Source of the DNA: Bacteroidales bacterium
Lineage (GTDB): Bacteria > Bacteroidota > Bacteroidia > Bacteroidales > VadinHA17
Direction of reading: 5' to 3'
Assembly (NCBI GenBank): GCA_027067975.1
Contig: JAMOUS010000204.1
Location: 1 to 32,707, forward strand
DNA length: 32,707 bases
Under the pieces are notes generated by a model, which was not told where the DNA came from, searched no databases, and worked only from the letters and a program-made list of their open reading frames with translations. The position numbers and the translations under genes were made by a program. Positions 4,204-17,872 of the stretch are shown here, one piece after another; the first letter of the stretch is position 1, and each line of letters starts with the position of its first letter.

Positions 4204-7029
4204 ATGAACGATGAACCGAACCGCGAAGAGAAGGCTCTTTATCTGTTGGATGCCTATGCCTTGATCTTTCGGGCCTATTTTGCTTTTATCCGGAATCCCC
4301 GTATCACCTCGAAAGGTCTGAACACTTCGGCAATTTTTGGTTTTGTGACCACGCTTGAGGAACTTCTGCGGGAGTATGATCCTTCCCATATTGCGATCGT
4401 CTTTGACCCTCCGCGGCCCACTTTCCGACATGAGATCTATCCCGAATACAAGGCCAACCGTGACCAAACCCCCGAAGACATTAAGATCGCGGTGCCTTAC
4501 ATCAAACGGCTGGCAGAAGCATACCGCATTCCCGTGCTTGAGATCCCGGGATATGAAGCGGATGATGTGGTGGGAACCCTTTCGAAAAAGGCGGCGACAC
4601 GTAGTTTCACCACCTATATGGTCACGCCTGACAAAGATTACCTCCAATTGCTCTCCGAAAAAACCTTTTTGCTAAAACCCCGATCCCGACGGAATGAGAT
4701 GGAGAAGATCGGGTTGAAGGAACTTCCCGAATATTTTCAGGTACAACGTCCCGAACAGGTGATCGATGTGCTGGCCCTTTGGGGGGATGCTTCCGATAAC
4801 ATCCCCGGTGCGCCGGGGATCGGGGAAAAAACGGCAAAAAAGCTGATCAATGAATACGGTTCGCTCGAAGGCATCTATGAGAACCTTGATAAAATAAAGG
4901 GAAAACTCAGGGAAACCCTTGAAAAATACCGCGACCAGATCTTCCTATCCCGGGAATTGGTCCGTATCCGTACAGATGTTCCTATCGAATTCGATGAGGA
5001 AAACCTGCGGCATACGGAAATGGACAGAAAGAAACTGGAGGAGCTTTTCCGGGAACTGGAGTTCCGGACGCTCATGGAGAGGATCCTGCAGAAGGACACA
5101 AAGGGTCCTTCTCCATCATCCCGTTCCCACAGTCAGGACGCTGTACAAGGGTCATTGTTCGGAGAGGAGTTTTCGAATGGCGAAGAACAGGAAGGAGGGG
5201 ACGGGGAAGAGAAAGACCGTACCATCGGGAATACCGAACATCATTATCAGCTGTTGGATACGGACGAAGCGATCCGGACATTGGTGAAAACACTTTCCGG
5301 AAAAAAGGCTTTTGCCTTTGATACGGAGACCACGGGCCTCGATTTTCTGGATGCAAGGATCGTGGGACTTTCCATTTCATACCAGGCGCATCAGGGTTAT
5401 TATGTTCCTTTTCCGGAGGATCCTGAAGGGACGCGAAAAAGATTGGAATATTTCAGGTCTCTTTTTGAGGATGAACGGATCCTCAAGGTCGGTCAGAACA
5501 TCAAATTCGACCTGCATATCCTGGCCAATCACGGGTTGCGGGTACGGGGTCCGATCTTTGATACCATGCTGGCCCATTATCTTCTTTATCCGGATCAACG
5601 GCACAACCTCAATGAGATGGCTTTGACGCTATTGGGGTACCGGCCCGTAGCCATCGAGGAGCTGATCGGGAAAAAGGGGAGGGATCAGCTCAGCATGCGG
5701 CAGGTGGAAGAAGAGAAGCTGAAAGAGTATGCGGCCGAGGATGCGGATCTCACCTGGCAACTCTATGAAATTCTTGCTCCCCGTTTGAAAGAGGCGGGCT
5801 TGGAAAAGCTTGCCAGGGAGATCGAGATGCCGCTGGTGCGGGTGCTGCTGGCCATGGAACGTACCGGAATACGCTTGGATGTCCGGGTGTTGAAAGAGTA
5901 TGCGAGTAAGCTGAGAGAGGAGCTTGCCCAACTGGAAAAGGAGATCCATGCCTTGGCAGGGAGAGAGTTCAACATCTCCTCACCGAAACAGTTGGGTGAG
6001 GTGCTCTTTGAAGAACTCAAAATCGCAACGAAGACCAAAAAGACCAAGACCAAACAGTATTCCACCAGTGAAGAGGTGTTGGTCCAGTTAAAAGGGACCC
6101 ATCCCATTGTGGAGAAAGTCCTGGAATACCGGTCGATTCGCAAACTGCTCACCTCTTATGTGGAAACGTTGCCGGAGCTGGTGCATCCCCGCACGGGTCG
6201 TATCCATACGGAGTTTAACCAGGCCATTGCCGTGACCGGCCGTCTCAGTTCTGCAAATCCCAACCTTCAGAACATTCCCGTCCGCGAGGAACGGGGCCGG
6301 GAGATCCGGAAAGCTTTTGTCGCGGCGGATGAAGAGCATCTTCTTTTCTCGGCCGACTATTCGCAGATCGAGCTGCGCCTGATGGCCCATTTGAGCGGTG
6401 ATGAAGGGCTCATCGAAGCATTCCGCGAAGGTCGCGACATCCATGCCGCCACGGCCGCGAAGATCTATGATGTCCCGCTGGAGAAAGTGACACGGGAAAT
6501 GCGCAGTCACGCCAAAACGGCCAACTTCGGAATTATCTACGGGATCTCGGCCTTTGGCCTGGCACAGCGTCTGGACATCCCCCGTAGTAAAGCCAAAGAA
6601 CTGATCGAAGGATATTTCCGTTCCTTCCCGGGGGTGAAGGCTTACATGGAAAAGAGTATCCAGATGGCACGGGAGAAAGGATATGCGGAAACAATCATGG
6701 GACGCCGGCGCTACCTGCCCGACATCCACTCGGGGAACAGCTATGTACGCAGCAATGCCGAACGCAATGCGATCAACACTCCCATACAGGGGTCGGCGGC
6801 CGATATCATCAAACTGGCCATGATCCGTATTCAACGCATCCTGGAAGAGAAGAAGTACCGGACCCAAATGATCCTGCAAGTTCATGACGAGTTGCTGTTC
6901 GATCTTTATATACCGGAAAAGGATGAAGTGATCGAAAAGGTGGTGTACGAGATGGAACATGTGGTCGAGCTACGGGTGCCGCTTGTGGTCGATTATGGGA
7001 CTGGCAGGAACTGGCTGGAAGCTCATTAA
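4204..7029 (+). CDS. polA: DNA polymerase I
   Basis: 941 aa; 5' nuclease domain (YLLDAYALIFRAYFAF, VTPDKDYLQLL, GIGEKTAKKL), intact 3'-5' exo motifs (FDTETTGLD, NIKFDLH, YAAEDADLTW), polymerase motifs (SADYSQIELRLMAHLSGD, KTANFGIIYG, QVHDELLFD). Confidence 0.98.
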   Translation: MNDEPNREEKALYLLDAYALIFRAYFAFIRNPRITSKGLNTSAIFGFVTTLEELLREYDPSHIAIVFDPPRPTFRHEIYPEYKANRDQTPEDIKIAVPYIKRLAEAYRIPVLEIPGYEADDVVGTLSKKAATRSFTTYMVTPDKDYLQLLSEKTFLLKPRSRRNEMEKIGLKELPEYFQVQRPEQVIDVLALWGDASDNIPGAPGIGEKTAKKLINEYGSLEGIYENLDKIKGKLRETLEKYRDQIFLSRELVRIRTDVPIEFDEENLRHTEMDRKKLEELFRELEFRTLMERILQKDTKGPSPSSRSHSQDAVQGSLFGEEFSNGEEQEGGDGEEKDRTIGNTEHHYQLLDTDEAIRTLVKTLSGKKAFAFDTETTGLDFLDARIVGLSISYQAHQGYYVPFPEDPEGTRKRLEYFRSLFEDERILKVGQNIKFDLHILANHGLRVRGPIFDTMLAHYLLYPDQRHNLNEMALTLLGYRPVAIEELIGKKGRDQLSMRQVEEEKLKEYAAEDADLTWQLYEILAPRLKEAGLEKLAREIEMPLVRVLLAMERTGIRLDVRVLKEYASKLREELAQLEKEIHALAGREFNISSPKQLGEVLFEELKIATKTKKTKTKQYSTSEEVLVQLKGTHPIVEKVLEYRSIRKLLTSYVETLPELVHPRTGRIHTEFNQAIAVTGRLSSANPNLQNIPVREERGREIRKAFVAADEEHLLFSADYSQIELRLMAHLSGDEGLIEAFREGRDIHAATAAKIYDVPLEKVTREMRSHAKTANFGIIYGISAFGLAQRLDIPRSKAKELIEGYFRSFPGVKAYMEKSIQMAREKGYAETIMGRRRYLPDIHSGNSYVRSNAERNAINTPIQGSAADIIKLAMIRIQRILEEKKYRTQMILQVHDELLFDLYIPEKDEVIEKVVYEMEHVVELRVPLVVDYGTGRNWLEAH

Positions 7030-7041
7030 CAAAGAAAAGAT

Positions 7042-7887
7042 ATGGGAAAGTTCGTGGGTGCTCATGTCAGCGCGTCGGGTGGGGTGGAAAATGCCCCGGT
7101 GAATGCTCATGAGATCGGGGCAAAGGCTTTTGCCCTCTTTACAAAGAACCAGAGACAATGGCGGGCGAAACCTCTGAGCCGGGAAAGTGTCATCCGGTTT
7201 CGGGAGAACATGGAGCAGTACGGTTTCGATCCGGACCATGTCTTGCCGCATGACAGTTATCTGATCAACTTGGGCCATCCGGACAAGGAAGGATTGCAAA
7301 GGTCGCGGGAAGCCTTTTTCGACGAGATGGAACGGTGTGAGCAGTTGGGTCTGAACAGGCTCAATTTCCATCCGGGCAGCCACCTGAACAAGGTGAGCGA
7401 GGAGCGGTGTCTCCTTACCATTGCCGAGTCGATCAATCTGGCGCTCGACCGCACAAGGGGAGTCACGGCGGTGATCGAGAACACGGCGGGGCAAGGAACC
7501 AACCTGGGCCACACCTTCGAGCAAATCCGTTTTATCATCGACCATGTGGAAGACAAGAAACGGGTCGGCGTTTGCATCGACACCTGCCATGCTTATGCGG
7601 CAGGGTATGATATTAAAAGCGAAGAGGGATATGAGAAGACCTTCCGCGAATTTGAGGAGGTGATCGGCATGCATTATCTGAAAGGGATGCATCTGAACGA
7701 TACCAAGAAAGGACTCGGCTCCCATGTCGATCGCCATGACAACATCGGGAAAGGTTTGCTGGGGGTGGAGGTGTTCCGTCGCATCATGAACGATCCCCGT
7801 TTCGACGGGCTGCCGTTGATCCTGGAAACACCGGACAGCTCCTTGTGGGCCGAAGAGATCCGGATGCTTTACTCTTTCATCGCCTGA
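7042..7887 (+). CDS. nfo: Deoxyribonuclease IV (endonuclease IV)
   Basis: [92 protein letters not shown]. Confidence 0.97.
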
Positions 7888-7936
7888 GCGATTGTCGCCT
7901 TCATAGGTGCCGTGCAGGCAGCTGCCGGAAAAAAGA

Positions 7937-7944
7937 TAACTTTG
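7937..7944 (+). promoter_or_regulatory. -7 promoter element TAACTTTG upstream of sigma-like ORF
   Basis: Exact TAnnTTTG, 27 nt before ATG 7972. Confidence 0.4.
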
Positions 7945-7971
7945 CCGGGTGGGATTCCCGGAGGTATACGG

Positions 7972-8415
7972 ATGAACATAACCGGTGCGATAAGATTGTC
8001 GCAGGAGTTTCTTGCTGATCTTTACGATCTCAGCTTTGACGGACTCTACCTTTTGGCCCGACCTTACCTGGATGCCGAGAAGGCCCGTGATGTGGTGCAG
8101 GAAGTCTTCGTCAGACTGGCCGAGCAGGAGGATCTTATCCTCCACACCTTCCTGAAAGCTTACCTCCACCGGTCGGTCGTGCATGCCTGTCTCAACGAGC
8201 TGAAAAAACGGCATGCCGAAGATGAGTATGCCCTGGAACTTCGCTTGCGTATGCTTGAGGAAGAACGCTCGCGGGAGGAAGATCCCCTTGCGGGCCGCGA
8301 GACCCTGGAGCAGGTGTTGTTGGCTATTCAACGGACCTCCCCGATCTGTTATACCATCGATCACAGGACAGTCTACCTCGAAAAGATCCCGAGCAAGAAC
8401 ACCCAAAATCCATAA
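7972..8415 (+). pseudogene. Truncated ECF sigma-70 factor (region 2 only) fused to a DUF4974-like FecR C-terminal tail; probable deletion relic
   Basis: LSFDGLYLLARPYLDAEKARDVVQEVFVRLAEQ...AYLHRSVVHACLNELKK matches ECF region 2; no region 4 HTH follows. C-terminus ETLEQVLLAIQRTSPICYTIDHRTVYLEK resembles the extreme C-terminus of FecR anti-sigma proteins. Confidence 0.7.
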
Positions 8416-8420
8416 TCGCG

Positions 8421-11400
8421 ATGAGAAATAAAATCCTGACCCTGTTGTTCCATCTCATCCTCACGGCGGTGCCCCTCTTCCCGCAAGGGGAGAAAGTGAC
8501 CGTGAAAGGTGAGGGGATTCCTCTGCGGCAGCTCTTCGAGATGATCCAGGAGAAGACGCATTACCGTTTTTTCTACAACGAGGATCTTCCTGCCCTGAAC
8601 GAAAGGGTGACCGTGGATGCCCGGAATGAGGATGTGAGCACGTTGTTGACCTCGGTGCTGGGGCAACGGGGTCTGATGTACCGGATCATTGATGGCAAGC
8701 TGATCGTCGTGGCCGATCCGAAAGGCTTCCAGCAGCATACCGTGAGCGGGCGTGTGACGACCGAGGACGGCTCCCCTTTGCCGGGGGTGAATGTGTTCAT
8801 CAAGGGCACCTCCAAGGGGACCATTACCGATACTGACGGACGTTACTCGCTCGAGGTCCCTGATGGTGCCACGGTGCTGGTCTTTTCGTTTGTGGGCTAT
8901 AAGCCGCAGGAGATCCCGGTGGGCGACCGACGGGTGCTCAATGTCCGGCTGAAAGAGTCGGTGCAGAAGCTCGAGAAAGTGGTGGTCACCGGCCTGGGCA
9001 TCTCCCGCAAGCAGAAATCGTTGGGATATGCCGTGACCGAGGTGGGAGGTGAAGAGGTGGCCCAGGCCAAGGAAGCCAACATGATCAATTCGCTGGCCGG
9101 AAAGGTGGCGGGCATGCAGATCAACCGCACGGCCGGCGGGGTAGGGTCATCAAGCCGCGTGATCCTGCGCGGCATCACCTCCCTGCTGGGCAGCAACCGG
9201 CCCCTTTTCGTCGTCGACGGCGTGCCGGTGAGCTCCGGAAACCTCGGCAGCGCCGGGGAATGGGGAGGCATCGACCGGGGCGACAACATCGCCGACATCA
9301 ACCCTGAGGATATCGAAAGCATCTCCGTCCTGAAAGGCCCCAGTGCATCGGCCATCTACGGCTCGATCGGAGCCAACGGCGTGATCCTCATCACCACCAA
9401 GAAAGGAAGCCGCAAAGAGGGAGTGGGGGTCGAGTACAGCTCTTCCGTATCGATGGACACCCCGTTGGTATTGCCGGAGCTGCAAAACAAGTACGGCATG
9501 GGGGGCTATGGAGTGTACGCCCCTATCGATCCGGTGACAGGCCTGCCTTCGGGAGAATATCCCTGGGTATGGAGCTACGGACCGGAGATGCAGGGACAAC
9601 TCCTCATCAACTGGCTCGGGGAAGAACAGCCTTATACGCCGCAACCGGACAATTACAAAGACTTCTTTACAACGGGGTGGGGGTTGACCAACACGTTGGC
9701 TTTTGAGGCGGGTTCGCCCAAAGCCACCACACGGGTATCTTTCTCCGATTTCAGGACGCAAGGGATCGTGCCCAACAACGACCTGAACCGCCAGACCTTC
9801 AACCTGCGGGGTACTGCCAAACTGGGCAAGCGCCTCGACCTCGACGCACGGGTCACCTATGTCCATCAACGGGCCCACAACCGCCCTCTGATGAGCGAAG
9901 ATCCCCACAACCCGGTGTATATGCTCGAAATGATGCCCCGTAACCTGCGTCTCGAGGATCTTAAGAACAATATCGTCGATGAGAACGGAAAGGAGAAGAA
10001 CTGGATGTCTGACATCTTCACCAGCAACCCCTATTGGGGCCTGAAATATATCGGGAATCTCGACGATAAGAACCGTATGATCAGTTTCTTGTCGCTCAAC
10101 TATCATTTTTCCGACTGGCTGAGCCTGCTCTTCCGCAACGGGATGGACTATTATTCGTTGCGGACGAAAGAATGGCGTGCCAATAAGTCGAAGACCAACA
10201 ACGACGGATACCTTTCGGCCAGCCAGAGCAACAACATGTCATTCAATTCCGATTTCCTGCTTTCGGCCAAGAAGAAGCTATCGGACAATCTGGGCGGGGG
10301 GCTCAGCCTCGGCGGGAACATGCGCTACTACAACGGTATCTGGATCGGTCAGAGCGGAAGTCTTTTCCATGTTCCCGATTTTTACAACATCAGCAATGTA
10401 TCGCGTTACTCCACCGGTGAGGGTTTTTCGGAAAAAGAGGTCTTCTCGCTGTATGCTCTGGCCAACCTTTCCTGGAAGGATTATCTGTTCCTGGATGCCA
10501 CGATCCGGAATGACTGGTCGACCACATTGCCCAAGAACAACAACTCCTATTTTTACCACTCGGAGAACATCGGTTTCATTTTCACGCAGGCCTTTGGCTG
10601 GAAGAATTATTGGTTCTCGTTCGGGAAGCTGCGGGGTTCGTTCGCAAAGGTGGGGAACGACACGGGTCCGTACCAGACTTATCAGTATTATTATGTGGAG
10701 CAGAGCAAGTTCCCCTACCCGTTGGGCAACCTTTCGTCGCAGTTGGCTTTCTATGACTTCAAACCGGAGCTTACCGACTCGTGGGAGGCGGGGGCGGATC
10801 TGATGTTCTTCGGGCGTCGGCTGGAGGCCAATTTCACCTATTATGAGAACCTTTCGAAGAACCAGATCATGTCGGTGCCGTTGTCGCACACCACCGGCTA
10901 TACGAGCAAGAAATTCAATGCCGGCAGCATCCGGAGCCGCGGTTATGAGGTGGTGGTAGGAGGGACACCGGTACATACCGAATCGGGTTTCGACCTGCAC
11001 TTGTCGTTCAATCTTTCGCACAGTGTTTCGATCGTCGAGTCGTTGCATCCCAGTCTGGACAAGCTGGAGCTGGCACACCTGTGGTCGGCATCGATCCAGG
11101 CCAGACCCGGAGAGAAATATGGTGATATCTACGGCTATGCTTACAAAAAAGACAAGTTCGGCCGCAAGTTGATCGACGACCGGGGTTTTGCCCAGAAAGG
11201 GGACTATACCAACCTGGGGAATATCAACCCTGATTTCCTGGCAGGGTTCTCGGGCAAGATGTCATGGAAAGGTTTGAGCTTCAGTTTCCTTGTGGACATT
11301 CAGCAAGGAGGGAAGTTCTTCTCCTGGGGCAAGGCGATGAAGTGTCTTTTCGGGAATACGGTGGAAACACTTGAGGGGCGTGCCGAATGGTATGCCACCC

Positions 11401-11816
11401 ATGATCCTGCCACGATGTACCAGACCCCGCTGCCGGGAGTGGAGCCGGATGGTTACTATGAGGAGGGTGTCCTGGAGAAGAACGGCCAGCCCAACAATAT
11501 TCCCATCCAGCCGATCTGGCGGTGGTACAACGTGTATGCCCAGGACATTGCGGAGGAATGGATCGTGGATGCTTCCAATGTGAGGATGCGCGAGATGGTA
11601 TTGGGGTATACCTTCCCTGCCAAGCTCCTGAAGAATACGCCCCTGGCCTCGGCACACGTGGGCCTCTCGGGCAGGAACCTCTTCTTCTTTTACCGGGCTT
11701 CGCGCCATGTGGATCCCGAGTCGGGTTACAACCCCGGCAACGTGGGCAACGGTTTTGAGAACCATGCCTTGCCTACCACGCGCAGCATCGCTTTCAACCT
11801 GAAAATCGAATTTTGA
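8421..11816 (+). CDS. SusC/RagA-family TonB-linked outer membrane protein with N-terminal STN domain
   Basis: Signal peptide, STN domain (LRQLFEMIQEKTHYRFFYNEDLP...), CarboxypepD_reg-like (VSGRVTTEDGSPLPGVNVFIKGTSKGTITDTDGRYSLEVP), plug (LFVVDGVPVSSG, ISVLKGPSASAIYGSIGANGVILITTKKG), C-terminal TRSIAFNLKIEF. Confidence 0.96.
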   Translation: MRNKILTLLFHLILTAVPLFPQGEKVTVKGEGIPLRQLFEMIQEKTHYRFFYNEDLPALNERVTVDARNEDVSTLLTSVLGQRGLMYRIIDGKLIVVADPKGFQQHTVSGRVTTEDGSPLPGVNVFIKGTSKGTITDTDGRYSLEVPDGATVLVFSFVGYKPQEIPVGDRRVLNVRLKESVQKLEKVVVTGLGISRKQKSLGYAVTEVGGEEVAQAKEANMINSLAGKVAGMQINRTAGGVGSSSRVILRGITSLLGSNRPLFVVDGVPVSSGNLGSAGEWGGIDRGDNIADINPEDIESISVLKGPSASAIYGSIGANGVILITTKKGSRKEGVGVEYSSSVSMDTPLVLPELQNKYGMGGYGVYAPIDPVTGLPSGEYPWVWSYGPEMQGQLLINWLGEEQPYTPQPDNYKDFFTTGWGLTNTLAFEAGSPKATTRVSFSDFRTQGIVPNNDLNRQTFNLRGTAKLGKRLDLDARVTYVHQRAHNRPLMSEDPHNPVYMLEMMPRNLRLEDLKNNIVDENGKEKNWMSDIFTSNPYWGLKYIGNLDDKNRMISFLSLNYHFSDWLSLLFRNGMDYYSLRTKEWRANKSKTNNDGYLSASQSNNMSFNSDFLLSAKKKLSDNLGGGLSLGGNMRYYNGIWIGQSGSLFHVPDFYNISNVSRYSTGEGFSEKEVFSLYALANLSWKDYLFLDATIRNDWSTTLPKNNNSYFYHSENIGFIFTQAFGWKNYWFSFGKLRGSFAKVGNDTGPYQTYQYYYVEQSKFPYPLGNLSSQLAFYDFKPELTDSWEAGADLMFFGRRLEANFTYYENLSKNQIMSVPLSHTTGYTSKKFNAGSIRSRGYEVVVGGTPVHTESGFDLHLSFNLSHSVSIVESLHPSLDKLELAHLWSASIQARPGEKYGDIYGYAYKKDKFGRKLIDDRGFAQKGDYTNLGNINPDFLAGFSGKMSWKGLSFSFLVDIQQGGKFFSWGKAMKCLFGNTVETLEGRAEWYATHDPATMYQTPLPGVEPDGYYEEGVLEKNGQPNNIPIQPIWRWYNVYAQDIAEEWIVDASNVRMREMVLGYTFPAKLLKNTPLASAHVGLSGRNLFFFYRASRHVDPESGYNPGNVGNGFENHALPTTRSIAFNLKIEF

Positions 11817-11818
11817 CC

Positions 11819-13327
11819 ATGAAAAGGATACGACAGAAAATGAAAACCCTTCCGCAAATACTGGCTTTGATCCTGCTGGCTGCCGGCATGAGCGGGTGCT
11901 ACTCGGATTTCAAGGACATGAACAAGAATCCGAATGCGCTGACCTCCCTCGATGCGGAATATCTTTTCTCCAATGCGGTGAAGAAGACCTTCCTCGACAC
12001 CCGTACCGACTGGAAGCTGATGCTCCATTTCGGGTCACAGTACAGTCATTTCTATGTGGTGTCCCACAATACCACACGGCCCCATGATACGTATAAGGAC
12101 AATCTTTACACGGAGGATTATTTTGACATATACAGTGCCACTTTTGTCGGGCCGTTGAAGCTCACCAACGAGGTGATCCGGCTCACCGCCGAAGGGGGTG
12201 AACAGGAGAATCCTTTGCGCAATGCCATGGCCCAGGTAGTGGCCATGGTCAACTATGCCCGCATCACCGACCTTTACGGGGACATCCCTTATACGGAAGG
12301 CGGTTGGGGCCGCGAAGGGGTCCTCAGCCCCAAATATGATGCCCAGCAGTTCATCTACGAGGATATGATGACCCGGCTGAAGAACTGTATCGAGGTGATC
12401 AAGGCGGGCGACCCCAAGGATGCTTACCCGGGTTTTGACCCGTTGTATGACAATGATCCGGAGGCGTGGGTGCGTTTCGCCAGCTCTTTCCGCTTACGTT
12501 TGGCCATGCGGGCGCGCTTTGCAGATGAGGCGTTCGCATCACAGGTGATCAGCGAATGCTTGCAAGAAGAGCTTATCGAGGATCTCGGGCAGAATGCCCA
12601 GATCGTCCGCTATGACAATCCCGACCTGTATAACAACTGGGACTGGATACACGGGATGCTACCCTGGAAAATGAGCAAGAAGCTGGTCGACTGGTTGAAG
12701 AACACTTCCGACCCGCGGTTGCAGGAATGGGTGGAGCCCACTCCTTTCGGGGAATACCGGGGGGTGCCGAACGGCCTGAACGATGTGGAGTTCTCAAAGG
12801 TGTACTGGGACAGTATCTCCGATCCCACCCCTGCACTTTATGCCAGGGATATGCCGGTCTATTTTCTTACAGCGCCGGAAGTGAAGTTCCTCCATGCCGA
12901 AGCAGCCCTGATCGGACTCGATGGCGGTGATGCCAACCAGTACTACCGCGAAGGGATCCGGCTGGCCATGGAACAGTGGAACATCCCCGACACGGCCATC
13001 CAGCGCTTTCTCGACCATGAGGCGGAAGCCACCCTGTTCGGTAGCGACGAGAACAAACTTCGCCAGATCGCCACGCAGAAGTGGCTCTCTTTTGCCACCA
13101 ACTTTATCCAGGCATATACCAGCATCCGCCGTACCGGCTATCCGTTGATCCCGCAGCGGACCGCCCCATGGCTCGACCGCGGTGTCACGGACGGCTATCT
13201 TCCCAAACGTTTTAAATATCCCAAAAAGGAGATCGCCATCAACTACGATCATGTGATGGAAGCCATCGAGCGGCAAGGGCCCAATGAGATCTCCACGCCG
13301 GTATGGTGGGATGTGAAGGGGGATTGA
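11819..13327 (+). CDS. SusD/RagB-family nutrient-binding outer membrane lipoprotein
   Basis: Lipobox AAGMSGCYSDFKDMNKNPNALTS; RITDLYGDIPYTEGG; immediately downstream of SusC. Confidence 0.93.
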   Translation: MKRIRQKMKTLPQILALILLAAGMSGCYSDFKDMNKNPNALTSLDAEYLFSNAVKKTFLDTRTDWKLMLHFGSQYSHFYVVSHNTTRPHDTYKDNLYTEDYFDIYSATFVGPLKLTNEVIRLTAEGGEQENPLRNAMAQVVAMVNYARITDLYGDIPYTEGGWGREGVLSPKYDAQQFIYEDMMTRLKNCIEVIKAGDPKDAYPGFDPLYDNDPEAWVRFASSFRLRLAMRARFADEAFASQVISECLQEELIEDLGQNAQIVRYDNPDLYNNWDWIHGMLPWKMSKKLVDWLKNTSDPRLQEWVEPTPFGEYRGVPNGLNDVEFSKVYWDSISDPTPALYARDMPVYFLTAPEVKFLHAEAALIGLDGGDANQYYREGIRLAMEQWNIPDTAIQRFLDHEAEATLFGSDENKLRQIATQKWLSFATNFIQAYTSIRRTGYPLIPQRTAPWLDRGVTDGYLPKRFKYPKKEIAINYDHVMEAIERQGPNEISTPVWWDVKGD

Positions 13328-13356
13328 GCAAGAGAAACCCGAAAAATGCGGAAACC

Positions 13357-14292
13357 ATGAAACGAAATGGAAGGATGATACTGAAAAAGATCATACGGAT
13401 GGCAGGGGTGGCCTTTTTCGCCGCCGCGATGTTCTCCGCCTGCAGTGAAGAAGCCCCGTTGGTCGACTTCTATTTTGAGGTGCGGGGCGATACGGCCATA
13501 TTCAACAGCAAGGCGATCCATGCCGATACCTATGCTTGGGATTTCGGTGACGGACAGACCTTCGACGAACCTGACCCGATACACATTTATGAGAACCCGG
13601 GAGATTACGAAGTGACCCTGACCGTCACGGGAAAAGGCGGCCAGGATTCCCAGACGAAGGTCGTGACCATTGTTCCCAATTCGCCCTATGACCTGCTTAC
13701 GGGAGGTCCCGACAATACGGAAGGAAAAGTATGGCGGATCAGCCGTACCATTTCTTCCGGCGATGCCATTTTTACACCCATCGATGAGGAACTTGGGCAT
13801 GTTTACCTGCCAATGTACAACAATGTACTGGAAGACCTGGGCCTGGGGGAGGAGTATGAGGATGAGTTCATTTTTTATCCCGATGGGACATACAAGCATA
13901 ATGTCAAGAACGGCGGGGGGATGACCGGCTATCGTTATGCCAGCAATAACGGACTGGAGGTGATCAAGACCACCCCGTACGGGATCTGGGTGACGAAGTT
14001 CTCCCCTCCCGAACATGCCACTTTCACATTTGCCGAGGATACGACCTTTACCTTAAAGTGTGCGATGGAACGGGAGGATTCGCTTTATGATGTCACCTTC
14101 CACCATGTGATGGTCGTCCAGGCCTCCGAGCCGGAATTCTTTGTCTTGCGGGATTATACCCGTACGGTGATCATCAAGGAGATCACCCATGACAAGATGA
14201 GGGTGTTGGTGTTCCTTTCGAGCAGTGACATTGATGATATTTCCCAATATCCTACCCATGCTTTCCTGATGACCCTCGAAGCTGAAAAATAA
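13357..14292 (+). CDS. PKD-domain lipoprotein (candidate surface glycan-binding protein)
   Basis: Lipobox MFSACSEE; PKD repeat AIHADTYAWDFGDGQTFDEPDPIHIYENPGDYEVTLTVTGKGG; follows SusCD. Confidence 0.8.
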   Translation: MKRNGRMILKKIIRMAGVAFFAAAMFSACSEEAPLVDFYFEVRGDTAIFNSKAIHADTYAWDFGDGQTFDEPDPIHIYENPGDYEVTLTVTGKGGQDSQTKVVTIVPNSPYDLLTGGPDNTEGKVWRISRTISSGDAIFTPIDEELGHVYLPMYNNVLEDLGLGEEYEDEFIFYPDGTYKHNVKNGGGMTGYRYASNNGLEVIKTTPYGIWVTKFSPPEHATFTFAEDTTFTLKCAMEREDSLYDVTFHHVMVVQASEPEFFVLRDYTRTVIIKEITHDKMRVLVFLSSSDIDDISQYPTHAFLMTLEAEK

Positions 14293-14295
14293 ATC

Positions 14296-15882
14296 ATGAT
14301 GATGAAAAAAGGAATAAAAATTTGGATCGCCGCTGGGTTGCTGCTGGCAGGGATCACCGCATGTACAACAGGGACACACTTTTCTCCTTTTCTCCGTGTT
14401 GAGGGGAATGCCTTTATCGATTCAGCGGGCCGCGAGGTCGTGTTGCATGGTATCAATGTGATCAACAAGGATCCTGGGACAAAGTATCTCTGCAGCATAG
14501 GAGAGGAGGTGTATGAAAAGATGCACAGCTGGGGGTTCAATGTGGTGAGGCTGGGCATTCTCTGGGACGGACTGGAACCGGAGCCGGGAAAATATGATGA
14601 GGAGATGTTCCGTTGTATCGACCGGCATATTGCCTGGGCACGCAAATATGGGATCTATGTGCTCCTGGACATGCATCAGGATCTTTACGGGGAGAAGTAT
14701 TCGGACGGGGCGCCTCGCTGGGCTACCCTTGACGAAGATTTGCCCCATCAAACCGGAGCAATCTGGAGCGATGCTTACCTGTTGAGCCCGGCCATCCAGC
14801 GGGCTTTCGACAATTTCTGGAGGAATGCTCCTGCCCCAGATGGGAAAGGCATCCAGGATCATTATGCAGACCTGTGGAAAAAGATCGCGGCCCGGTATGC
14901 CCGGGAGCCGGTGGTGATCGGATACGATCTGATGAACGAACCTTTCCCGGGATCGCAGGCGGAGCAATATGTGCAGGCGATGATCGGGGCATACGGACAG
15001 TGGCTTGCCCGCACCACAGGAAAAATGCTTTCCGAAAAGGAACTGGTGGCTATGTGGAGCTCGCCGGAGGGGAAAGCGAAGGTTTTCGAATCCCTGCAGG
15101 ATACGGCCGTCTATAAGCAGGTGCTTCACTCCATCCTGCCGTTGACCCGCATGTTCGAGCAGGGCCCCCTGAACGACTTCTATACCCGTGTCGGTAGAGC
15201 GATCCGGGAGGTGGACACCCACCACATTCTTTTCCTGGAGCACAACTATTTCTGTAACCCCGGCGTTCCCAGCCAGCTGGTCATTCCCCGCACGGCACCT
15301 GACGGCGGCCGTGACCCGCTCGTGGCCTATGCTCCCCACGGCTATGATCTGCTGGTGGATACCCGGGATTATGACAAGGCCAGTGCCGCACGTGTAGCCT
15401 TCCTGTTTGGACAGATCGAAAAGACGGCCCAGAGATTGAATGTCCCCGTGCTGGTGGGAGAATGGGGGGCGTTCCATTCCCGCAAGGATGTGTTCGTGGA
15501 ACATGCTCGGCTCATTACCGGTATGTTCGCCAAAATGAAAGCTTCTGAAACTTTTTGGGCATATTACGAGGGGATCGAAGAATATCCCTTCTTCCGCGTG
15601 TTGCAGCATCCTTACCCCAAAGCCGTGGCCGGGAAGTTGAAGAGCTATTCTTTCGATCCAGAAAAAAGAGTGTTGAAGGTAACATGGGAGGAGAACGGCC
15701 AGATCCTTGAGCCTTCTCTCTTTTACGTTCCCGGCGTTACGACAGGGGATGCTGTGAACATCGAGCTTCTTCCTGAAGGGGATGGATTTGCGTTCCGTTT
15801 CCTCCCCGACGGAAAAGGGGCGGTGTTGAACGTCATCCCGCAAAAAGAAACCGGAAAAAGAACATTGAAGATCAGTTATTGA
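14296..15882 (+). CDS. Glycoside hydrolase family 5 lipoprotein, endoglycoceramidase-like
   Basis: Lipobox ITACTTG; VLHGINVINKD, LLDMHQDLYGEKYSDGAPRWAT, AFDNFW, YDLMNEPFPGSQ, VLVGEWGAFHS, HPYPKAVAG followed by a C-terminal beta-rich domain. Confidence 0.85.
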   Translation: MMMKKGIKIWIAAGLLLAGITACTTGTHFSPFLRVEGNAFIDSAGREVVLHGINVINKDPGTKYLCSIGEEVYEKMHSWGFNVVRLGILWDGLEPEPGKYDEEMFRCIDRHIAWARKYGIYVLLDMHQDLYGEKYSDGAPRWATLDEDLPHQTGAIWSDAYLLSPAIQRAFDNFWRNAPAPDGKGIQDHYADLWKKIAARYAREPVVIGYDLMNEPFPGSQAEQYVQAMIGAYGQWLARTTGKMLSEKELVAMWSSPEGKAKVFESLQDTAVYKQVLHSILPLTRMFEQGPLNDFYTRVGRAIREVDTHHILFLEHNYFCNPGVPSQLVIPRTAPDGGRDPLVAYAPHGYDLLVDTRDYDKASAARVAFLFGQIEKTAQRLNVPVLVGEWGAFHSRKDVFVEHARLITGMFAKMKASETFWAYYEGIEEYPFFRVLQHPYPKAVAGKLKSYSFDPEKRVLKVTWEENGQILEPSLFYVPGVTTGDAVNIELLPEGDGFAFRFLPDGKGAVLNVIPQKETGKRTLKISY

Positions 15883-16399: not shown

Positions 16400-17872
16400 A
16401 TGTTTTTACGAATGAACAAATTATTTCGGTCACTGGTTTTTCTTTTCCTTTTTCTGGGCTTCCTCTGGTTTGGGAGTGTGTTGTGGTTCCAGTGGCGTTA
16501 TCCCCAGTTGCATTGGGATTGGTCAAGTATTGATACCGATGATTTAACTTTCCCTCCGTCGTTTTTGTGGGGGACGGCAACCTCCGCGTATCAGGTCGAA
16601 GGGGGTGATACCAACAGCCAGTGGTATCTGTGGGAACATGCAAAGGACCGACAGGGAAATCCCCGTATTCTGCACGGGGACACGTGCGGGTGGGCGTGTG
16701 ATGAGTGGAACCGTTATCCCGAAGATGTCCGGTTGATGAAAAGTTTGGGGTTGAATGCGTATCGTTTTTCGGTGGAGTGGAGCAAGATCGAACCCCGGGA
16801 AGGGGTGTTTGACCGGGAAGCGATCCTGCATTATCAGCAATTGTGTGATACTTTGCTGAAGGCGGGCATTGAACCCGTCGTCACCCTGCATCACGTCACG
16901 GACCCCATCTGGTTTGCTGAAAAGGGGGGGTGGGAGAAAGAAGAAAACATTCAGGATTTTGTAAAATTTGCCATCCATATTGTTCGAGCCCTGGGAGAGA
17001 GGGTGAGGATCTATTGCACCATCAATGAGCCGGCCGTATATGCCATGGAGTCGTATTTTTCCGGAACGTTTCCTCCCGGGAAGGAAGACCTTCGTCTGAC
17101 GGCGTTGGTGCTGCGAAACCTGCTGATCGCGCATGTTCAGACCTATCATGCGATCAAAGCTTTGCCTGGCGGAAAGGAAAAATATGTCGGCATCGTCAAG
17201 AACATCACCCTTGTCGACCCCTGGAACAAATGGTCCCTGCCCGATTGGCTTTTCAGCCGCCTTTCCGATCAGGCATTTAACGGAACGACGATCGATTTTT
17301 TCCGCACCGGTCGATTCCGTTTCTGGATGCCTGGCATGGTTTTCCTAAATTATGAGGATACTGCGGCTGTTCATTCATTGGACTTCTTTGGTCTCAACTA
17401 CTATTCTCATTATCTTTATCATTTCTCGTTTGACCCGAAGAAGGCTTTTAAGCCCAAAATCCCGGAAAATGAGATAATGACCGATATGGAATATTCTGTT
17501 TATCCAGAAGGTTTTTATCGGGCGGTCCGGCGTGTGGCTGTATTAGGGGTTCCGGTAATGGTGACGGAAAACGGGATTGCGGATGCCCGAGATGACCGTC
17601 GCGAAATGTTCATCCGCCGGCATCTTTTTGCGCTTTCCAAGGCTATACGGGAGGGATACGATGTTTGCGGATATTTTTACTGGAGTTTGCTGGACAATTT
17701 CGAATGGGCGGAAGGATACAGTAAAAAGTTCGGGCTCTATGCCATGGATCCCGTGACGCTGGAACGTACGATGCGGAATGGAGCGAGGGTTTACGGAGAA
17801 ATTGTGAGGAGGTTCAATCCTATTGCCGCTCGACCACCTTCCACAGGCAGGGTGATTGTCGATTGTGAATGA
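16400..17872 (+). CDS. Glycoside hydrolase family 1 (beta-glucosidase-type) with N-terminal membrane anchor
   Basis: Hydrophobic N-terminus LFRSLVFLFLFLGFLWFGSVLWF; FPPSFLWGTATSAYQVEG, YRFSVEWSKIEP, TINEPAVYA, VTENGIAD, YFYWSLLDNFEWAEGYSKKFGLY. Confidence 0.93.
   Translation: MFLRMNKLFRSLVFLFLFLGFLWFGSVLWFQWRYPQLHWDWSSIDTDDLTFPPSFLWGTATSAYQVEGGDTNSQWYLWEHAKDRQGNPRILHGDTCGWACDEWNRYPEDVRLMKSLGLNAYRFSVEWSKIEPREGVFDREAILHYQQLCDTLLKAGIEPVVTLHHVTDPIWFAEKGGWEKEENIQDFVKFAIHIVRALGERVRIYCTINEPAVYAMESYFSGTFPPGKEDLRLTALVLRNLLIAHVQTYHAIKALPGGKEKYVGIVKNITLVDPWNKWSLPDWLFSRLSDQAFNGTTIDFFRTGRFRFWMPGMVFLNYEDTAAVHSLDFFGLNYYSHYLYHFSFDPKKAFKPKIPENEIMTDMEYSVYPEGFYRAVRRVAVLGVPVMVTENGIADARDDRREMFIRRHLFALSKAIREGYDVCGYFYWSLLDNFEWAEGYSKKFGLYAMDPVTLERTMRNGARVYGEIVRRFNPIAARPPSTGRVIVDCE

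Follow-up and report, generated by a model that had tools for sequence, protein, structure and literature searches.

An in-frame fusion of ECF sigma region 2 to the end of FecR as the probable scar of a deletion in a sigma-FecR-SusC operon of a Bacteroidales bacterium

The analyzed sequence is a contig of a Bacteroidales bacterium, the whole length of which (32,707 nucleotides) is referred to below as the window. Downstream of polA and nfo, region 2 of an ECF sigma factor is joined to the C-terminal end of FecR in one ORF, which is followed by STN-SusC, SusD-like, PKD-domain and GH5 genes. The following features are located in this region.

4204–7029, plus strand: polA, upstream anchor gene (DNA_pol_A, E = 1e-165; syntenic in genome G001).
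7042–7887, plus strand: upstream anchor gene, which we take from sequence recognition to be nfo (endonuclease IV-like; syntenic in G001).
7972–8415, plus strand: chimeric ORF, from ATG at 7972 to the stop codon ending at 8415, 147 aa.
7972–8298, plus strand: remaining 5' portion of the ECF sigma gene, encoding region 2 plus the beginning of the region 2–4 linker, aa 1–109 (Sigma70_r2, TIGR02985 and identity with the G001 sigma).
8298/8299, no strand: proposed deletion junction, placed by comparison with G001.
8299–8385, plus strand: retained 3' end of fecR, the last ~29 codons (27–29 residues), FecR_C model positions 43–70 (FecR_C, BLASTN and identity with G001).
8386–8415, plus strand: probable read-through extension IPSKNTQNP and stop codon (comparison with the FecR ends of G001 and G017).
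8421–11816, plus strand: intact STN-type SusC (TonB-dependent transporter), 1131 aa (STN, CarbopepD_reg_2, Plug).
11813–13327, plus strand: intact SusD-like lipoprotein (SusD-like_2, E = 6e-68; pN/pS 0.18).
13303–14292, plus strand: PKD-domain protein encoded in the operon (synteny with G005 and G001).
14296–15882, plus strand: GH5 glycoside hydrolase of the operon (Cellulase, E = 3e-31; syntenic in G005).

Mechanical ORF calling placed the start of the chimeric ORF at GTG 7912. According to the Pfam search, both halves of the ORF are recognizable, as the initial annotation, made from the window alone, had proposed. The match to Sigma70_r2, the region of core binding and -10 recognition, covers aa 34–81 (E = 9e-6, 25.8 bits, above the Pfam cut-off), and the model of the Bacteroidetes-type sigma-70 family, TIGR02985, aligns with aa 16–127 (E = 1e-13, below the family cut-off). 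The motif ARDVVQEVF of the core-binding region 2.2 is kept. The FecR_C match at aa 109–135 (E = 5e-3; with the tail searched by itself, 1e-3) lies below the Pfam cut-off and covers positions 43/44–70 of the 70 in the model, so that the subdomain is incomplete. Similarity of the tail to the DUF4974/FecR C-terminus had been named beforehand as one of the points on which the chimera could fail, and it was found; the weak match is regarded as secure because the orthologous locus of G001 matches. The annotation was also right in placing the STN-SusC gene 5 nt past the chimera stop, with no separate fecR at the locus.

ECF sigma factors consist of regions 2 and 4 (PMC6372665). In the Pfam search of the chimeric ORF, neither region 4, which recognizes the -35 element, nor the periplasmic FecR domain PF04773 was detected, and reading of its sequence by eye revealed no hydrophobic segment long enough to span the membrane. 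The window contains no counterpart of residues 1–329 of the G001 FecR, which include the N-terminal sigma-binding domain and the transmembrane segment. The FecR proteins of G001 and G017 terminate with LEKIN and LESLN, respectively; the original FecR stop codon was probably lost in the chimera, with an 8-codon read-through into former intergenic sequence.

Genome G001, a member of the same genus, contains an intact locus. Its contig C162 carries polA, nfo, sigma (179 aa), FecR (360 aa) and STN-SusC genes collinear with the window. Both sigma regions are present in G001 (region 2 score, 48.1 bits; Sigma70_r4_2, E = 2e-18, whereas the chimeric ORF has no match to region 4, as claimed in the initial annotation), and the G001 FecR contains the FecR domain (PF04773, E = 1e-17) plus FecR_C. 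A BLASTN comparison of the G001 contig with the window gave one block covering polA–nfo up to window position 7860 and another at 8299–8903, extending into susC (E = 2e-69, 70%). The second block begins at base 8299, the exact start of the FecR tail. From the sigma start to the susC start, G001 has 1,715 bp and the window 449 bp, so that 1,266 bp net are missing; the sequence lost relative to G001 comprises the whole of sigma region 4 and FecR residues 1–329. The in-frame deletion of region 4 together with almost the whole of FecR, suggested earlier from the window sequence, is thus borne out by the intact congeneric locus, and the loss would most simply be read as a single deletion event. The order sigma, fecR, SusC is also intact in G017, a more distant member of the family, with a related SusC. 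There, a 724-aa ORF is located between sigma and fecR (L040 6409–8583), presumably sialidase/BNR-repeat-like as judged by eye.

Since synonymous sites are near saturation between the window and G001, the pN/pS ratios of this comparison are rough: 0.45 for the sigma part of the chimera (42% identity), 0.16 for its FecR tail (84% identity with the end of the G001 FecR over 31 aligned residues), 0.16 for nfo (83% identity) and 0.33 for the N-terminus of SusC (68% identity). The spacer between nfo and the sigma ORF is 84 bp in the window (7888–7971) and 331 bp in G001, and the upstream sequence differs too.

No direct repeats were found around the junction. The proposal that the deletion occurred between ETLEQVL-like repeats was not upheld, as the best match between the G001 breakpoints comprised 10 of 14 bases and 321 of 2,000 random pairs were as similar. 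As for the age of the deletion, with substitutions only, 147 codons would stay open with a calculated probability of 0.34 after 0.1 neutral substitutions per site and of 0.13 after 0.2. This low chance of a lasting open frame indicates that the deletion is recent or that the ORF was kept, and makes long neutral decay unlikely. In the tree of sigma sequences, the branch length is 1.07 for the window versus 0.50 for G001; accelerated decay of the sigma half is nevertheless not supported, since Tajima relative-rate tests with two outgroup sigmas were not significant (p = 0.13 and 0.64).

The genes downstream of the chimera are open and conserved. In comparison with G005, SusC, SusD, PKD and GH5 genes have the same order and pN/pS of 0.13–0.28, with 0.13 for the C-terminal 404 codons of SusC; the SusC C-terminus of G005 is 98% identical to that of G001. 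The STN domain of the window SusC was matched with E = 1e-5 and 25.6 bits, below the cut-off of 28.4. The GH5 gene may point to a beta-glycan as substrate. Upstream of the chimeric ORF, neither a sigma-70 promoter nor a Bacteroidota-type promoter (TTTG-N17-23-TAnnTTTG) was found. Since the transporter and enzyme genes are intact and conserved, the operon is probably still expressed, from another promoter. Elsewhere, the genome carries several further sigma and FecR genes. Half sigma/FecR genes on contigs C10 and C75 were considered as further deletions and rejected, being cut by contig ends. Farther downstream in the window, a GH1-family gene is located at 16400–17872, between a 128-aa ORF and an M48 peptidase; it has no match at the corresponding place in G005, and on this comparison of gene content it appears to have been either gained in the genome of the window or lost in G005.

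Taken as a whole, these data make it very likely that the ORF marks where an ECF sigma-FecR-STN-SusC operon lost ~1.27 kb by in-frame deletion and that the product of the ORF is a relic. The deletion would have removed sigma region 4 plus the cytoplasmic, membrane and most of the periplasmic sequence of FecR, so that sigma region 2 is now joined to the final piece of the FecR STN-like subdomain. With no anti-sigma domain and no region 4, neither function would be expected, and the domain content makes loss of both the most likely state of the fused product. As a consequence, the operon may have lost its dedicated cell-surface-signalling control and would probably now depend on a constitutive or globally regulated promoter, not on substrate-gated sigma release.

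In gene order, domain origin and operon context, the locus resembles the ECF sigma-FecR-STN-SusC operons of Bacteroidota (FecI/FecR/FecA-type). It differs from them in that sigma region 4 is missing, FecR is represented by the last ~29 residues only, and the remnants form one ORF. Two described systems are comparable in part. In IutY, a natural hybrid of Pseudomonas putida, an N-terminal sigma and a C-terminal FecR-type anti-sigma are likewise combined in one polypeptide, and truncation of the anti-sigma part activates the sigma (PMC5411451). However, IutY keeps the full sigma, the transmembrane segment and the periplasmic domain, whereas the chimera lacks region 4 and the transmembrane segment and retains very little of the anti-sigma. 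Mutants with loss of the anti-sigma BT1876, described for polysaccharide utilization loci (PULs) of B. thetaiotaomicron, are similar in that the anti-sigma gene is lost from an ECF-controlled operon; in these, the sigma stays whole and expression of the operon rises (PMC11501099). Raised expression by this route is not expected in the window, because the route needs a whole sigma and here the sigma is truncated too.

The initial annotation had left the choice between a relic and a short protein that still binds the RNA polymerase core. The relic is favoured; the functional protein, for the activity of which no support was found, is less so. It seems improbable that a 147-aa product is made and acts with region 2 alone, either competing for the RNA polymerase core or serving as a crippled sigma that needs a partner for promoter choice. 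The open frame of 147 codons and the kept region 2.2 motif are consistent with such a protein, as is the AlphaFold model, in which region 2 is predicted with confidence (block-mean pLDDT 85–98 over aa 11–100) and aligns with sigma-E region 2 structures (best Foldseek matches 4lup, 5or5 and 2mao; prob 1.00, E 0.05–0.1). However, the last ~22 residues, belonging to the tail, are predicted to be disordered (pLDDT 43–54), and region 2 scores about half as high as in the intact orthologue. One of the Foldseek matches is an RNA-guided transcription complex; an RNA-guided dCas12f-type partner for the crippled sigma was rejected, since no match to the Cas12f/TnpB zinc ribbon was found in the genome. 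The pN/pS of the sigma part also exceeds the values of the downstream genes, although a sigma that was fast-evolving before the deletion could give the same ratio. Of the 117 family genomes, one has a match that extends over both halves, that of the window itself, and there is no second example of such a protein. The narrower suggestion that the 147-aa protein is made and has been retained to bind RNA polymerase through region 2 alone, modulating transcription of the downstream operon, must be considered quite unlikely.

An artefact of assembly or binning, in which a collapsed or mis-joined contig would hide sigma and fecR genes that are in fact intact in the genome, also appears improbable. 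The locus was read in a single draft assembly of 311 contigs, and contigs of neighbouring species break inside susC. On the other hand, the junction is in frame and lies within a continuous contig of 32.7 kb. As noted above, it is not flanked by a direct repeat, and the corresponding ends in G001 share 10 of 14 bases at best; with no long identity between the ends, a mis-join by a k-mer assembler is disfavoured. In addition, the rest of the assembly yielded no hit to this FecR at E <= 1e-30. The idea that such short sigma/anti-sigma fusions form a conserved stand-alone family of proteins, for which the existence of hybrids such as IutY (PMC5411451) may speak, is hardly credible: it is refuted within the bacterial family, as in none of its other genomes does a match extend over both halves; those nearest relatives of the sigma half whose neighbourhood was read are ordinary sigmas with a separate fecR; and IutY retains full sigma and anti-sigma domains.

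The preferred reading, a deletion scar with a relic product, is well-documented ordinary gene decay. Its interest lies in the surroundings of the fused gene. The locus provides a clear natural example of a sugar-uptake operon that is left without its dedicated signalling regulator while the transporter and enzyme genes are still conserved, and it could serve for studying what drives expression of such operons once sigma/anti-sigma control is lost. Moreover, within one genus the cluster occurs with an intact regulator, decayed, and not found. In G002, pieces of SusD (aa 11–74 and 454–504) and of GH5 (aa 427–528) are located next to nfo (L092 6546–8191) together with one small ORF that is still intact; sigma, fecR and susC left no trace at this decayed locus. 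The corresponding place in G006 yielded none of the cluster genes, and in G004 the contig ends there.

G003 and G004 contain separate STN-SusC genes (L097 10070–13483 and L098 6709–10116, respectively), 46–47% identical to the SusC of the window. These genes have no adjacent sigma or FecR and are conserved nevertheless, which indicates that STN-SusC can persist without local signalling genes. Relaxed constraint on the STN domain of the orphaned SusC in the window was also considered. Identity of the window SusC with that of G001 is 70% in the STN domain and 87% in the C-terminus, and the values for G003 versus G004 are 85% and 94%; this pair is a weak control, as both of its genes are themselves orphaned. 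The ratio is similar in the two comparisons, and the idea was rejected as giving no locus-specific signal. Two genes named by eye lie upstream of the STN-SusC genes of G003 and G004: one presumably encodes a regulator of two-component type, and the other, on the opposite strand, is presumably enolase-superfamily-like.
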